64,000 bases of DNA. Origin: Gemmatimonadaceae bacterium. Lineage in GTDB: Bacteria; Gemmatimonadota; Gemmatimonadetes; Gemmatimonadales; Gemmatimonadaceae. The first letter of the stretch is position 1. Each line of letters begins with the position of its first letter. The translations under genes and the position numbers were made by a program. This document shows positions 976 to 48,579 of this stretch, piece by piece. The DNA lies in contig JAUSJA010000033.1 in the NCBI GenBank assembly GCA_030647905.1, forward strand, positions 186,001 to 250,000. Direction: 5' to 3'. Below the pieces are notes generated by a model that saw only the letters and a list, made by a program, of their open reading frames with translations, was not told where the DNA came from and did no database searches.

Positions 976-3759
<2,784 letters not shown>

Positions 3760-4392
3760 CTACCCGGCCATCTCCGTCTTCTTCCTGGTGAAGCGGAGCC
3801 GCGGAATCGCATCGTGTATCTGCTCGGTGACTTCGCGCTGCATGCGCACCGGATCGAGAGGCTGCAGCATGTCCCTCAATTCGGGATCGTTCCCCACGGT
3901 ATGGCCCAGCCGGGTGTACAGCCCCGCAATGAGATGCAGTGTCTTGGTGACCTCTTCCTCGATGCGGAGATTTATCTGAAGAGCCAGCTCTTCCCTCAAC
4001 TCGCCAATCGCCGACTCCCTGCTCTGGCTCATGAGCACGAAAATGGACAGGAAGATGGCCTCGAGTGAGACGATCATCGTCAGAAGTCCGTACGGGAACG
4101 GATCGAACTTCGGAAGAGCCGTGAATTTGCTGTTCCAGACAAGCCAGGTTGTAAACGCGACCGCGTGAGCGACGAAAAAACCGGTCGAGCTCGCGAGGCG
4201 CGTCAGCCAGTCCGCAGCGACCTGCATCCGTGTGTGCTCGCCGGAGTGTTGCGCCTTGATGGCGCGAAAGGTGGTGTGAATGCGGCTGCTACGCCGGGTA
4301 CGCCGGTCGTATCCCGCCGGCAGCGGGCTTCCATGCTGCGTCCTCAGCATCTCCGGCAGAATCGTGTCTTGGTTGAGGTCGTCTTCGGTCAT
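3760..4392 (-). CDS. DUF1003 membrane protein
   Basis: A 210-residue protein with two hydrophobic segments near residues 75-95 and 105-130, ending in the family signature LSLEAIFLSIFVLMSQSR. An Arg/Glu-rich cytoplasmic tail follows (IGELREELALQINLRIEEEV). This matches DUF1003, a family of unknown function often found near ion-transport genes. I start at the ATG at 4392; a TTG at 4431 would add 13 residues. No clear Shine-Dalgarno is visible for either. The neighbouring upstream sequence on the same strand is an NRAMP remnant, so the two may once have been an ion-transport pair. Confidence 0.85.
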   Translation of the reverse strand: MTEDDLNQDTILPEMLRTQHGSPLPAGYDRRTRRSSRIHTTFRAIKAQHSGEHTRMQVAADWLTRLASSTGFFVAHAVAFTTWLVWNSKFTALPKFDPFPYGLLTMIVSLEAIFLSIFVLMSQSRESAIGELREELALQINLRIEEEVTKTLHLIAGLYTRLGHTVGNDPELRDMLQPLDPVRMQREVTEQIHDAIPRLRFTRKKTEMAG

Positions 4393-4458
4393 GGCAATTG
4401 GTCGAGGATGTTGATGGCTACTGAAACACAAAGAGTCCGAATATCGCGATGAACATCG

Positions 4459-4767
4459 CTAAAGTGGCCGCCGAAAGTGGGTCAACCCACGCGAATGCGG
4501 CGTGAGTGATGTGGTGAGAATGATAAAATACATCGCGACATTCGATGCGAACGTGCCAATCCCTACGTCCAGCTTTCTTCGCTGGATCTCGAACTTCGAC
4601 GCGCCGATCCGATCCACCACGCGCCGCCTTCCGATGAGCTTCTCCTCCTCCACTTCCTGAGACGTCTGCCAGAAGCCCTTACTGGCCGCATCCTCGCGAG
4701 TCTTCGTACGCCTGTCGCTTCCGCGGAGCAGAATCTCCGCAGGCCGTTTTTTCGGGAGAACCTTCAA
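4459..4767 (-). pseudogene. Remnant of an NRAMP-family divalent metal transporter
   Basis: The translation from about 4674 down to 4497 gives FWQTSQEVEEEK, then GASKFEIQRRKLDVGIG, then a membrane segment ending MYFIILTTSLT. This is the central region of NRAMP (SLC11) metal transporters, normally 400-470 residues long. Both ends are unrelated sequence, and only about 60 residues of homology remain. The 3' break runs into TTGACCCACTTTCGGCGG on the minus strand, which resembles the end of an IS21-type element from memory. A transporter cannot be made from this fragment. The 102-codon frame around it is probably fortuitous. Confidence 0.75.
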
Positions 4768-4829
4768 TCGGATCGCAAGTCTGGTGGAAGGTTTCGAAAT
4801 CGGGGTAAACGTACCAGCTTTCAGAAGCC

Positions 4830-5744
4830 ATGAATACGACAGTCACCGTCGGATTGATCCAGGAGTCCGTGACCTCCGACGCGAACGCAAATGTCGAGCG
4901 CGCCGTCGAGCGGGTGCGCGAGGCGGCCTCGCGCGGAGTACAGATCATCTGCCTCCAGGAACTCTTCAACGCCCCCTATTTCTGCAAGGCGCAGAAGTCC
5001 GAGCGCTTCGACCTCGCCGAGCCGATTCCGGGCCCAGCGGTGGAGCGGATGCAGAAGGTCGCGCAGGAGCTCGAGGTTGTTCTGATCGTTCCGGTCTTCG
5101 AGCGGCAGGCCGCAGGTGTGTATCGCAATTCAGCCGCGATTGTCGACGCCGACGGATCCATGCTCGGCGTGTATCGCAAGATGCACATCCCCGACGATCC
5201 GCTGTTCTACGAGAAGTACTACTTCACCCCCGGCGACTCGAACGTCTCGTACGATGGCGCGCACAAAGGGGCGAGCGGGTTCTGCGTGTGGAACACCCGC
5301 TACGCGAAGATCGGCGTGCTGATCTGCTGGGATCAATGGTATCCGGAGGCGGCGCGCATCAACGCCCTGCTCGGCGCCGAGATTCTTTTCTATCCGACGG
5401 CGATCGGGTGGCATCCCTCGGAGAAGGCGGAGTTCGGCAAGGCGCAGGTGGATGCATGGCGGACGGCGCAGCGCGCGCACGCAATCGCCAACGGCGTGTT
5501 CGTCGCGTCTCCGAACCGTGTCGGCCACGAGGACGAGGAAGGGACGGACGGCATTGAGTTCTTCGGTCATTCGTTCATCTCCGATCCGTTCGGGCGCATT
5601 CTCACCGAAGCGGGTACGGAGCCGGCGGTTCTGGTCGCCGAGTGCGACCGCAGGCTGATCGAGGATACGCGTCGCAACTGGCCGTTCCTGCGGGATCGGC
5701 GGATAGACGCCTACGGCCCGATTCTCAACAGGTACATCGGATGA
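4830..5744 (+). CDS. aguB: N-carbamoylputrescine amidase
   Basis: Hydrolyses N-carbamoylputrescine to putrescine, CO2 and ammonia, the last step from agmatine. The 304-residue nitrilase-fold protein shows the catalytic Glu44 (CLQELFNAPYF), Lys117 (YRKMHIPDDP) and Cys166 (GVLICWDQWYPEAA). The region after the cysteine, ILFYPTAIGWHPSEK, is typical of AguB. It is the first gene of a plus-strand run and overlaps aguA by ATGA. No strong Shine-Dalgarno or promoter is visible in the short gap before it. Other nitrilase-family amidases are possible, but the aguA partner makes this assignment firm. Confidence 0.95.
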   Translation: MNTTVTVGLIQESVTSDANANVERAVERVREAASRGVQIICLQELFNAPYFCKAQKSERFDLAEPIPGPAVERMQKVAQELEVVLIVPVFERQAAGVYRNSAAIVDADGSMLGVYRKMHIPDDPLFYEKYYFTPGDSNVSYDGAHKGASGFCVWNTRYAKIGVLICWDQWYPEAARINALLGAEILFYPTAIGWHPSEKAEFGKAQVDAWRTAQRAHAIANGVFVASPNRVGHEDEEGTDGIEFFGHSFISDPFGRILTEAGTEPAVLVAECDRRLIEDTRRNWPFLRDRRIDAYGPILNRYIG

Positions 5745-6868
5745 CAGCCGCGAAGCCCGCGGTGGCACCGTGGGCTGTCGTGACATCGTCACATCCTGCC
5801 GGAAGTCGCATCATGCCGGCGGAATGGGAGCGCCATGATGCCACGTGGATCGCGTGGCCGCACGACGAGCCGGACTGGCCCGGCAAGCTGGGTGCGATTC
5901 CGTGGGTGTACGCGGAAATAGTTCGTGCGCTGCACACGCACGAGCGCGTCGAGATTCTCTGTCATGACGAATCCGTCCGAAACGCGGCAAGAGTGGCGCT
6001 CGATGCTCACGCCGTGGACTCCGCCGGGTACCGTCTGCATCTGGTACCGAACGACCGGGTGTGGCTACGCGATTCGGCTCCGACGTTCGTGTGGAACGAG
6101 ACCGGCGCGATAGAGATGGTGAACTGGCGCTTCAACGGGTGGGCCAAGTACCACAACTACACGCGCGACGAGAGGGTCGGCGAGGCGGTGGAGAAGATCA
6201 CCGGCCTCCCGCGCGTGACGGCGAAGCGCCCCGACGACGGCTCGTGGCTCGTCATCGAGGGTGGCGGCATCGAGACGGACGGCGCCGGATCGCTGCTAGT
6301 GACCGAGGAATGGCTGCTGAGCGACGTCCAGATCCGGAATCCCGGCATGACGCGGCAGGACTACGAATCGGCGTTCGCCGAGTATCTCGGCATCACCAAT
6401 ACCATTTGGCTGGGCGAGGGATGCGTCGGTGACGACACGCACGGTCATATAGATGACATCGCGCGGTTCGCTGCCCCGGGGGTCGTGCTGCTGGCGTACG
6501 AGGATGATCCTGCCGATGCCAATCACCCCCAGTCGGCTGATAACCTGTCGCGACTGGAAAGCGCGGCGAAGCGCAGTCCGTTGCGGGTCGTCCGCCTGCC
6601 CTACCCCCGGCCGGTCATCATGGAAGGTCAGCGCTTGCCGGCGAGCTACGCGAATTTCTACATCGCCAACGACGTGGTGCTCGTTCCGACATTCAACGAT
6701 CCGAACGACCGCGTCGCGCTGGAGATGATCGCGCGCGAGTTTTCTGGCCGCGAAGTCGTGGGAATACACGCCGTGGATCTGGTATGGGGACTCGGCACGT
6801 TGCATTGCCTCACACAGCAGCAGCCGGCTCCCACCGGTAATGATTCTGGCAGCGGAAGCGCTGTGTGA
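5741..6868 (+). CDS. aguA: Agmatine deiminase
   Basis: Converts agmatine to N-carbamoylputrescine and ammonia. The 375-residue protein begins at the ATG of an ATGA overlap with aguB, which argues against the longer upstream frame. It contains PAEWERHDATWIAWP near the N-terminus, the mid-protein GGGIETDG motif, and the catalytic cysteine at about C356 in LGTLHCLTQQ. The stop overlaps the next gene's GTG (GTGA). Together with aguB it forms an arginine-decarboxylase-dependent route to putrescine; no decarboxylase lies in this window. Confidence 0.96.
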   Translation: MTAAKPAVAPWAVVTSSHPAGSRIMPAEWERHDATWIAWPHDEPDWPGKLGAIPWVYAEIVRALHTHERVEILCHDESVRNAARVALDAHAVDSAGYRLHLVPNDRVWLRDSAPTFVWNETGAIEMVNWRFNGWAKYHNYTRDERVGEAVEKITGLPRVTAKRPDDGSWLVIEGGGIETDGAGSLLVTEEWLLSDVQIRNPGMTRQDYESAFAEYLGITNTIWLGEGCVGDDTHGHIDDIARFAAPGVVLLAYEDDPADANHPQSADNLSRLESAAKRSPLRVVRLPYPRPVIMEGQRLPASYANFYIANDVVLVPTFNDPNDRVALEMIAREFSGREVVGIHAVDLVWGLGTLHCLTQQQPAPTGNDSGSGSAV

Positions 6869-7302
6869 ACTCAGGGTCGCCGGAAGCGGTCCGCTCCGGC
6901 TTGCCGGGTCGCCCTTATACGGTGGTGTACGACGGTCACTGCAACGTATGCAGGAGACTCGTGCGGATGGTCACCAAATGGGACAGGCGCGGCGACCTGG
7001 AGATTCTTCCTTCACAGACGCCGGGTCTTCACGCACGCTTTCAGTGGATTCCGGCGCACGCCTTTCTCGAATCGGTGCAGGTGGTCGAGAACGGAACTGG
7101 ATTGACGTGGCAGGGCGCGGCCGCACTCGAGCGGCTCCTCGATACCCTGCCGAAGGGACCGCTCATCTCGTGGATTTTCTCGATTCCATTCGCGCGGCCG
7201 ATCGTCGAGCGATTCTACCGCTGGTTCGCGCGTAATCGGTACCGGCTCGGCTGCGGAGAGCACTGCCAGCTCCGCGAGCCGAACCTCGACTGCAAGGGTT
7301 GA
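6865..7302 (+). CDS. DUF393 (DCC family) thiol-disulfide oxidoreductase-like protein
   Basis: A 145-residue protein with YDGHCNVC (C26, C29) near the N-terminus, which matches the YDGxCxxC thioredoxin-like motif of the DUF393 family. The C-terminal FYRWFARNRYRLGCGEHC adds further cysteines. It starts with GTG in a GTGA overlap with aguA and so is translationally coupled to polyamine synthesis. A functional link to putrescine is not established. Members are thought to be small redox proteins; the substrate is unknown. Confidence 0.85.
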   Translation: MNSGSPEAVRSGLPGRPYTVVYDGHCNVCRRLVRMVTKWDRRGDLEILPSQTPGLHARFQWIPAHAFLESVQVVENGTGLTWQGAAALERLLDTLPKGPLISWIFSIPFARPIVERFYRWFARNRYRLGCGEHCQLREPNLDCKG

Positions 7303-45452: not shown

Positions 45453-46517
45453 CTACCAGGCCGTGATGCGCTCGGCGATGCGGCCAGTTACCATAAGCTC
45501 GCGCAGCTCTTCGCCGAGTCGCTCGCTCGCGTCCACCACGCCCTGCCATCTGCGGATGCGCTCGCCCTCGGTCATCGTGTAGAAGTCGCGACGGTCGGGA
45601 ATCTTGCCGCCCGGCAGTGACGCAACGAATTCGGCCGACGGCGCAATGAGGAGCGCGCGGTCAAAGTTCACTCCGCTTGCCCTCCGCCATGGGATTCCCT
45701 TGTCGAACCATCCCGGCACGATGTGATCGTAGAAGTGCGGGTACAACACGAGCCCGTCTCCCGGCCCGAAGTCGAGATCGAGGTGGTAATCCAGCATGCC
45801 ACCGTCCCAGTGAGTCTCGCCTTCCCTGCCCGGTATCTCGACTCCCTCAAACACGAGCGGGATGGAGCCCGAAGCGATCAGCACCGCGCGAAGATTCTCC
45901 CGCGTGAGCGGAAGATGCACGGTGGGTAGATCCGACAGATGCAGGAAAGGCGTGTCGCTCCCCGCCGAGTGGAACACGTATCGCTTCATCTGGAGCGCGA
46001 GAGCGCGGCGGCTGACGAGATTGCCAACCGCCGCGATGGCGAGCGACGTGGCGAGAGCAATGCGCCGCGGACTGGCGGCGAGACCGGATCCCATCGTGGT
46101 GATCACGTGCACGCGCGCCCACGGATGGGAGAGAATCTCCTCGACACCGTTCGCGCCGAGCAGATCGTCGAGCAGCCGCGCCAGCACGTCCGTCACCTCG
46201 CGCGCCGACGGCTTCGGAGTGTATCTCTGCCCGTAGATGTATCCGTGATGCCCTCTCTCGAGCGCCGCGACCGGATCGCGCTGCGCGAGGCACGCAATGC
46301 GCCAGCTCCCGACGGACGATCCGATCAGGTGCATCACGCGCTCACGCGGCTGCTGGAGGAACTCGCCGAAGAGAAAGCGGTCGAGACCGGCGATGGACAG
46401 CCACTTCGCGCCACCCGATGCGGCGGGCAGGATGTCCACGTCCTCGGCGCGCAGCCCGCGCTCGCGTACGATCGCGAGAGCCCGGGTGCCAGCGCGGAGG
46501 GTGAGCGACGAGGCCAT
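45453..46517 (-). CDS. Patatin-like phospholipase
   Basis: About 354 residues. It has the lipase GxSxG as GSSVG with Ser68, an oxyanion-like SGGAKWLSIAG before it, and the dyad Asp in THWDGGMLDYH. This is a stand-alone cytoplasmic patatin without signal peptide. I start at ATG 46517; GGAGGG abuts it with too little spacing to be an ordinary Shine-Dalgarno. It is different from the patatin-ferredoxin protein at the window start. It is followed by the CPA2 antiporter after a 71-bp gap. Confidence 0.88.
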   Translation of the reverse strand: MASSLTLRAGTRALAIVRERGLRAEDVDILPAASGGAKWLSIAGLDRFLFGEFLQQPRERVMHLIGSSVGSWRIACLAQRDPVAALERGHHGYIYGQRYTPKPSAREVTDVLARLLDDLLGANGVEEILSHPWARVHVITTMGSGLAASPRRIALATSLAIAAVGNLVSRRALALQMKRYVFHSAGSDTPFLHLSDLPTVHLPLTRENLRAVLIASGSIPLVFEGVEIPGREGETHWDGGMLDYHLDLDFGPGDGLVLYPHFYDHIVPGWFDKGIPWRRASGVNFDRALLIAPSAEFVASLPGGKIPDRRDFYTMTEGERIRRWQGVVDASERLGEELRELMVTGRIAERITAW

Positions 46518-46740
46518 CCCTCCATTTAGCGATGCAGGTTTATCGCTGCAATGGCTGACATTCTCGTTCTGGGCGGTACACGCCGCCCGAGGAGTACCTG
46601 ATTTGGCTGGTGGAAGATTATCATCGAACCCGTTTCGCCTGCAGTCGGCTGTCCGGGTGTTATCTTTAGGCTGCGTCGGCCCTTCTCGAGAACTTCCCAC
46701 CTGATCTGCCGGCTCCCCACGGCCAATCCCCGAGCTTTCC

Positions 46741-46977
46741 ATGAGCGCCTACAAGAACCAGCAGCATCGCCTCGTCCGCGGCAGCCACCAGTTCCACTTC
46801 GTTTCCTACGATGGCCAGCCGTCGAACCCTCGGCGCGGCGAGCCGGCGACCGTCCCGATGTGGTATCTGATGAGAGCTGGCAAGCGCTGGCCGGTGATGC
46901 CGCAGGTACTCGGCGTTCCCGATTCGGAGGTCACCCAGGCGCTGACCGCCTGGCTGGATTCGCAGGGAATCGCGTAG
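46741..46977 (+). CDS. Small hypothetical protein
   Basis: A 78-residue, basic protein with aromatic residues (HQFHFVSYDG, MWYLMRAGKRWPVMP) and no recognisable domain, signal or membrane segment. The even composition and codon pattern look coding, and the flanking antisense frames do not. I cannot assign a function. Confidence 0.6.
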   Translation: MSAYKNQQHRLVRGSHQFHFVSYDGQPSNPRRGEPATVPMWYLMRAGKRWPVMPQVLGVPDSEVTQALTAWLDSQGIA

Positions 46978-47065
46978 CCGAAATAACTGGAAGCGTTGCT
47001 GCACCAGTTGAGGCACCTTCTTTCGACCTGCTTCGGCAGGGGCGTACCGCATTCCGGGTAGTGCG

Positions 47066-47578
47066 CTACGCACGGCAGCAGCGAACAGCGAGACGCACCG
47101 CTGCGATGCAGAGAAAACATGCAGCCGCCGCTGTCGCAACGGTGCGAACGCGAGTTCTTCGGGAATGGTACGACGACATTGCGAGAATCCTCCGCTTGAG
47201 CTGGGATGCAGATTCACTGAGAGCTGCGGCAAGGAAAGGACGGCTGGACACTCGCGCCCCAACGTCCAGCAAGAGCGAAGCGTACGCGTGTGAATCCGAG
47301 GTGTGGCGCAGAACTCGGCGGTCGCAATCGAGCTCGATGCTCGTTCGAAGTCGGCGCATCAGATACCAGAGCGCAAAGTTCCAGGGGAACGCGACCGTAG
47401 CGATCGCCGCTAACCATACCAGCACCGGATCAAAGGCTCGTGCGTGTTCCTGCTCGTGCGTTACGATCAGTGCTTGTTGTTCTGACGGAAGATCGATTAC
47501 CCATCTCGGCAGAACGACGTCGTAGCCGATGATTCCCGCGAGCGCAGGGCCGACCCGATGGGTCAGCCGGATCGACTG
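47066..47578 (-). pseudogene. Truncated M56 (BlaR1-like) peptidase
   Basis: About 170 residues with ALAGIIGYDVVLPRWVID, the zinc motif VTHEQEHARAFDP (HExxH), a membrane segment, and ELDCDRRVLRH. These are core motifs of M56/BlaR1 sensor-peptidases, whose usual 400-600 residues include four membrane segments and a sensor domain. The 5' half is missing: at about 47578 the sequence joins directly to a truncated blaI. The C-terminus ends soon after another membrane span, so no sensor domain is present either. Confidence 0.8.
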
Positions 47579-47777
47579 TGGGCAGATACCGGTGAGCCCG
47601 GCCTTCCTCACGGTGTCTCACGTAGCCTTTCTCTTCGAGAGTACGAAGAACAGTGAGAACGGTGGTGTAGGCGAGCTCGTCGTGCAGCTCCTTGCGGACT
47701 TCTGCTACGGTGACCGAATGAAGCTGCCACAAGACAGTCATGACATCCAGCTCACGATCCGTAAACGCTATCTTCAT
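47575..47777 (-). pseudogene. Truncated blaI repressor, DNA-binding domain only
   Basis: From ATG 47777 the frame gives MKIAFTDRELDVMTVLWQLH followed by LAYTTVLTVLRTLEEKGYV and RAHRYLPTV. This is the winged-helix domain of BlaI/MecI/CopY repressors. Homology stops at about residue 68; the dimerisation domain and protease-cleavage site are lost, and the frame enters the blaR1 remnant out of phase before stopping at 47430. A matching operator lies just upstream. A short DNA-binding peptide could still be made, but tight dimeric repression is unlikely. Confidence 0.82.
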
Positions 47778-47788
47778 TGCGAGCCTAT

Positions 47789-47806
47789 CTACTAGAGATG
47801 TAGTAG
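47789..47806. promoter_or_regulatory. BlaI-type operator dyad
   Basis: CTACTAGAGATGTAGTAG is a dyad with 8-bp half-sites and a 2-bp centre, matching in 7 of 8 positions. It closely resembles the TACTACA-NN-TGTAGTA operators of BlaI/MecI. It lies 12 bp upstream of the blaI remnant, where autoregulation would occur. Confidence 0.7.
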
Positions 47807-48017
47807 AGAGTAGCGGCTCTAAGTTTTTGAGCCAGGTTTTGGGCTGATCAGAGCTCCATGGGGAAGCAGAGGACAGCTCGATGCGAAGGAGCAAATTCAC
47901 TCCGGAGCAGGTGGCTCTGACGAATGAAATCCCATTCAGTCCGCCGCGGCCACTGGGCTGGCGATCGGCTCTACATTAGATGGTGTAGGGGATACACCAC
48001 TTTCACCCAGAGGATCT

Positions 48018-48227
48018 ATGACAGGCCGCGTGATGTCACCCCCCGCTTCCGTGCTCGGCGGAACCACCATTGTCCGGGTGGTCGAGAGAGGGGGCTCGGC
48101 GGTTCCCGAAGTCTGGGACGGCTCCGAATGGGCTGACGGCGACAAATCGTTACTGGATGAGTACGTTCGGGAAACGACCAGTCGGCTGTCGGAAGAAGAG
48201 CTGGAAGAGCGCGGAATCCCCGACTGA
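48018..48227 (+). CDS. Small acidic hypothetical protein
   Basis: A 69-residue protein beginning MTGRVMSPPASVLGG with an acidic second half (EVWDGSEWADGDKS, SEEELEERG). There is no signal or domain I can name. AGAGGA lies about 4 nt before the ATG, a good Shine-Dalgarno. The ~240 bases before it hold only the blaI promoter region. Confidence 0.6.
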   Translation: MTGRVMSPPASVLGGTTIVRVVERGGSAVPEVWDGSEWADGDKSLLDEYVRETTSRLSEEELEERGIPD

Positions 48228-48327
48228 GCGCGTAGCCGCTCGACTCTCGCCCGCTCATTCAGTGAGAGCGGGAAGGCTAGTGTGTCTCACCCGCACGAAC
48301 ACGATGCCGGAGCTCCACGCTTTAAGT

Positions 48328-48399
48328 TGCCCCTCCTAGGCTCGAACTAGGACTCTCCTGATCCAGAGTCAGGCGTGTTGCCAGTTACACCAAGGGGCA
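48328..48399 (-). tRNA. tRNA-Gln (CUG)
   Basis: The minus strand folds as a cloverleaf: acceptor TGCCCCT/AGGGGCA, anticodon stem CCTGA/TCAGG with loop CTCTGGA, anticodon CTG, and a TTCGA T-loop. No CCA is encoded. The 180 bases before the next gene show no other feature. Confidence 0.93.
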
Positions 48400-48579
48400 G
48401 AACAAGCTGCCTCGCAGACAACCGAGGCAGTCAGTCCAACTTAGTCGGTCACTGGCAGTTGTTCAATTGCCGCCAGCCGGGACGCGTTTCCCCTGAAGAA
48501 TCCAGCCCAGGACGGGTTCCACCGCGAGCCTTTAGGGTAGAACTTTTAGCCCCGAGAAGATCCACGTGAACTCAAGGCC

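Follow-up and report, generated by a model that had tools for sequence, protein, structure and literature searches.

The locus examined here raises the question of whether two joined parts of a BlaI repressor and its BlaR1 partner, next to an apparently perfect BlaI operator, still constitute a regulator or are the remains of one. The locus lies in the window, i.e. the whole stretch of 64,000 nucleotides that was analysed, which stems from a Gemmatimonadaceae genome available as a 3.1 Mb draft (37 contigs, 98.59% complete).

Anatomy of the blaI-blaR1 fusion

BlaI has kept its DNA-binding half, which on the minus strand is joined in a +1 frame to the catalytic half of its partner, a BlaR1 peptidase of the M56 family. 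The components are:

47580..47777, minus strand: blaI remnant, winged-helix DNA-binding half, residues 1-66 (PF03965, conserved columns)
47066..47575, minus strand: remnant of blaR1 (M56), 169 residues of the catalytic half, free of stop codons and including the HEQEH zinc motif
47430..47777, minus strand: fusion reading frame, 115 residues from the ATG at 47777 (66 BlaI residues plus 49 more)
about 47575-47580, minus strand: putative deletion junction at the protein level, with a +1 frame change

The Penicillinase_R profile PF03965 matched the 117-residue reading 47430-47783(-) at 1.9e-20, covering only profile positions 2-68 of 115. The N-terminal winged-helix DNA-binding domain is present and has kept 25 of 26 conserved BlaI columns. 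The C-terminal half is absent: Positions 69-115 of the profile, which hold the dimerisation and cleavage region, are unmatched, and the frame shifts at 47576-47580. The 49-residue tail of the fusion frame, nearly all of it out of frame, contains 11 Lys or Arg and 4 Asp or Glu residues. The Peptidase_M56 profile PF05569 matched the reading 47066-47611(-) at 1.2e-19 with positions 167-294 of 296. Here, 29 of 31 conserved columns are kept, including H40, E41, H44, E81, and D85 (remnant numbering). The N-terminal membrane half of BlaR1 (profile 1-166) is unmatched, and the only start codon of the remnant's own is an internal GTG (181 residues). Past position 133, the remnant has 36 further residues, compared to a median of 248 in relatives with their stop codon in view. 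However, at most 60 residues are found in seven of these 97 relatives, all from genomes of the same genus; a loss at the C-terminus of BlaR1 can therefore not be claimed.

These results agree for the most part with an earlier note on this DNA, which had described halves of BlaI and BlaR1 meeting out of frame at about 47575. The two Pfam matches, the +1 frame and a distance of 4 nt between the halves bear out the fusion, its position and the BlaI homology as such, and the unmatched profile positions 69-115 confirm the proposed loss of the dimerisation half. Two claims hold in part. The BlaI match is truncated as stated, but its end, given as residue 68, falls at residue 66-70 when counted from the ATG. 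The membrane sensor, which was said to be gone, is missing with respect to the N-terminal half but not demonstrably at the C-terminus.

The size of the gap was assessed by means of intact BlaI-M56 pairs (both genes on the same strand, BlaI match of more than 50 residues, M56 match of more than 120, meeting points -50 to 2000 nt apart). In all 94 non-duplicate pairs, the meeting points are at least 554 nt apart (median 602), versus 4 nt here, which argues for an out-of-frame deletion of approximately 0.55-0.6 kb; such a deletion would be the simplest account of the join. A BLASTN comparison with the intact pair L131 of the same-genus genome G011 yielded two collinear pieces, which abut at about 47544-47551 in the window and are located about 560 nt apart in L131. 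Relative to intact homologues, a frame-destroying lesion is thus present at the blaI-blaR1 join.

A profile search of the whole genome found only two PF03965 and two PF05569 matches, one of each at this locus and one of each on contig C27. No further piece of the broken pair and no second copy was detected by this search in the 37 contigs. In a scan of genome contigs with the BlaI half, 80 of 147 loci were kept, and identity to these relatives reaches 77%; the corresponding scan with the M56 half found none. No intact copy exceeded 77% identity for the BlaI half (among the 80 loci kept) or about 50% for the M56 half. Chance similarity was rejected as an explanation of the whole finding.

Operator and promoter region

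Upstream of the fusion frame, three features have to be considered:

47789..47806, no strand assigned: predicted BlaI operator O2, CTACTAN6TAGTAG, 12/12 arm bases
47807..47812, minus strand: putative -10-like hexamer TACTCT, as aligned with the intact L131
47813..47870, minus strand: place of the TTGACA -35 box and of the upstream operator O1 in most intact relatives; both are absent

Judged by its conservation, the palindrome at 47789-47806 can be regarded as a genuine operator of this BlaI subfamily. The comparison comprised the distinct upstream regions of BlaI relatives, without those cut by contig ends or identical to others. Sites matching in 10 or more of the 12 arm bases were found in 89 of these 148 regions, compared to 1.65 expected from shuffled sequences (spacers 5-7). 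With a spacer of 6 alone, the number was again 89 of 148. Among relatives with a BlaI identity of at least 60%, 81 of 106 possess such a site. Control searches gave 0 of 148 inside the gene and 0 of 140 at 400-560 nt upstream. Loci titled Dyella, Massilia, and Caballeronia likewise show good, single matches to this consensus.

A scan of the window with up to three mismatches yielded five operator-like matches versus 1.08 expected, and with zero or one mismatch solely this palindrome, read from both strands. In the whole genome, the relaxed pattern WACTAN6TAGTW recovered nothing but this palindrome, compared to 5 and 5 matches in the backwards control. When the stricter pattern was allowed up to two mismatches, four further places were obtained, each with two mismatches, versus 32 and 38 in the backwards control. 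The 3.1 Mb genome thus contains no other copy of this quality. The near-ideal operator of the earlier note is thereby corroborated, as is its position upstream of the start; the distance to the ATG at 47777 is 11 bp, not 12. The genome scan for additional operator copies, which the note had proposed, found none.

In relatives, the common layout is an O1 that runs into TTGACA, followed by the -10 box and by O2 near the start. Two or more operators, mostly 41-45 bp apart, were found in 61 of the 106 closer regions (for example L141, L143, L147, L172, and L176), and in 50 of the 106 an operator shares bases of its 3' arm with the best -35 box. The -35 box is perfect TTGACA in 54 of 64 regions with an O2-like site and matches in five of six bases at the expected distance in seven more, whereas shuffled sequences give about 6 of 64 regions with at least five bases. 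In the window, three of six bases match at the expected place, which is chance level, and O1 is missing. DNA similarity to L131 ends just upstream of TACTCT, and no promoter-like site was found in 46500-48400. A second change, which the earlier note had missed, thus appears to have removed or replaced the -35 box and O1. Note that by this score no operator is present in 25 and one operator in 20 of the 106 closer regions; a single operator alone is therefore no sign of decay. A good -35 box is also missing in 3 of the 64 O2-bearing regions. It is the missing -35 box combined with the broken frame that is a sign of decay.

The promoter region also bears on the main rival explanation, an error of assembly or binning. 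In this case, the real genome would contain an intact blaI-blaR1 pair, of which the contig skipped about 0.55-0.6 kb. The 37 contigs of the draft assembly and the intact coding sequence to either side of the join are compatible with such an error. However, neither a separate piece of the pair nor a duplicate at which a misjoin could have arisen is present in the assembly, which is 98.59% complete, and a single misjoin would not explain why the -35 box and O1, about 0.25 kb away, are missing too. An assembly error is hence considered improbable.

Probable decay, its age, and the genomic surroundings

Very probably, an ordinary blaI-blaR1 pair has become a pseudogene here fairly recently, leaving one fossil operator. 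By analogy with the relatives and with what is known of BlaI/BlaR1 systems, two operators around the promoter of the intact form would be occupied by a BlaI dimer that represses the blaI-blaR1 transcript, and the membrane metallopeptidase BlaR1 would relieve repression upon a signal. Through the deletion, the final 169 codons of blaR1 would have come to follow blaI codons 1 to 66-70 out of frame; the second change would have affected the -35 box and the upstream operator. Neither a dimeric repressor nor a complete membrane peptidase could then be produced, and the surviving operator would be a fossil. From this picture, we infer the loss of function, its recency, and the order of the two lesions.

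Neither half contains an internal stop codon or frameshift. Departures from conserved columns number 1 of 26 in BlaI and 2 of 31 in M56, compared to means of 1.23 and 1.27 in intact proteins, of which 58 of 94 (BlaI) and 27 of 94 (M56) depart as often or more. In a random-substitution model, so few departures have a probability of about 6% if 0.05 substitutions per site are assumed, and of 0.5% for a value of 0.08; under neutral drift, fewer than approximately 0.05 substitutions per site would thus have accumulated since the break. So few changes point to a recent break or, with lower probability, to a fragment that is still used and kept under selection. Compared with intact M56 proteins at equal BlaI identity, the M56 half shows a lower similarity to relatives (for example 39.6% versus 43.9% in the 65-70% class), and it ranks sixth lowest of 91. 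This mild sign of faster change speaks against selection, but the change may predate the break.

That the 115-residue protein, or a 181-residue M56 piece translated from the internal GTG, is made and active, for example by binding O2 weakly, is quite unlikely. The open frames, the kept DNA-binding and zinc residues and the perfect operator would fit such a role, but young age explains the same facts. Moreover, there is no -35 box or promoter-like site, the dimerisation half and the N-terminal half of BlaR1 are lacking, and nothing similar occurs among the 94 pairs. The absence of a -35 box and of O1 also makes it less likely that the 68-residue winged-helix peptide binds weakly, as the earlier note had considered.

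Even less probable is that a different member of the BlaI family uses the operator in trans, an idea which the earlier note had put forward together with a search for further blaI genes. This search led only to the BlaI-M56 pair on contig C27 (L005, G000:C27:14000-23000, 3345-4909), which makes the idea conceivable. However, the C27 BlaI is too divergent to be found at an E-value of 0.001 with the BlaI half of the window, no operator of this type was seen upstream of it, and the site is single in the genome. Use by another BlaI was rejected on the grounds of this divergence and the single copy. The C27 pair is flanked on one side by what we take to be an ABC permease of the metal type and on the other by a presumed CzcC-like outer-membrane protein, so that its role may lie in the control of metals instead of beta-lactams. 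A minimal one-piece regulator, in which a BlaI without dimerisation half but with a basic tail binds the remaining operator, or in which +1 slippage at CCC-A tethers the repressor half to the M56 half, is equally hard to credit.

The pseudogene reading can also be viewed in the light of the neighbouring genes:

48326..48399, minus strand: tRNA-Gln (CTG), bounds a variable interval
45453-46742: patatin-like gene (PF01734), the other neighbour of the remnant
46741-46977, plus strand: gene of 78 residues adjoining the remnant, without a Pfam match

The content of the tRNA-Gln interval varies among relatives. Of 36 searched, only G006 from the same genus has both flanking genes on one contig. It has the same tRNA-Gln and flanking genes; its interval lacks a BlaI match and holds a different gene of 287 residues, presumably PAP2-phosphatase-like by its motifs. 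The pair is therefore dispensable at this site. Other genes follow the tRNA-Gln in G007, G013, and G015. No repeat of at least 12 bases of the tRNA-Gln 3' end, a copy as left by integrating elements, was found within the window. The gene of 78 residues has relatives with 39-54% identity in 10 of the 36 other genomes searched and so belongs to a small family of proteins for which Pfam gave no name here.

The pseudogene in itself matters little, since regulator pairs of this kind are very common and it is simply a further decayed one. More useful is the operator rule that was tested along the way for this BlaI subfamily: A TTGACA promoter is surrounded by CTACTAN6TAGTAG-like sites, often two of them at a distance of about 41-45 bp. 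This rule can help to separate working from dead copies and to find targets in other genomes; it is not claimed to be unpublished. A literature search on BlaI in Gemmatimonadetes gave nothing on this case among the best matches.

Comparison with known systems

The remnant shares with the BlaI/MecI family (PF03965) the winged-helix half, its conserved residues and the presence of an operator where its own gene begins. In contrast to the remnant, members of this family possess the second half (profile 69-115). With the BlaR1/MecR1 peptidases (PF05569), it shares the HExxH zinc motif and other conserved residues of the catalytic half; it differs from them in the absence of profile positions 1-166 and of any start of its own except the internal GTG.

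Another truncated BlaI is encoded in L251 (contig C113 of G042, 3000-7000). It matches profile positions 1-71, and its end point is nearly identical to that of the remnant. The L251 protein continues into other sequence, and no joined M56 half was seen in the stretch translated. Its BlaI half at about 1980-2250 represents an independent truncation after the DNA-binding domain at nearly the same point.

The intact pair L131 has the gene order of the window, 70% identity in BlaI and 39% in M56, and a short C-terminus of BlaR1. Unlike in the window, its frames are intact and its operator CAACTAN6TAGTTG runs into a TTGACA -35 box.
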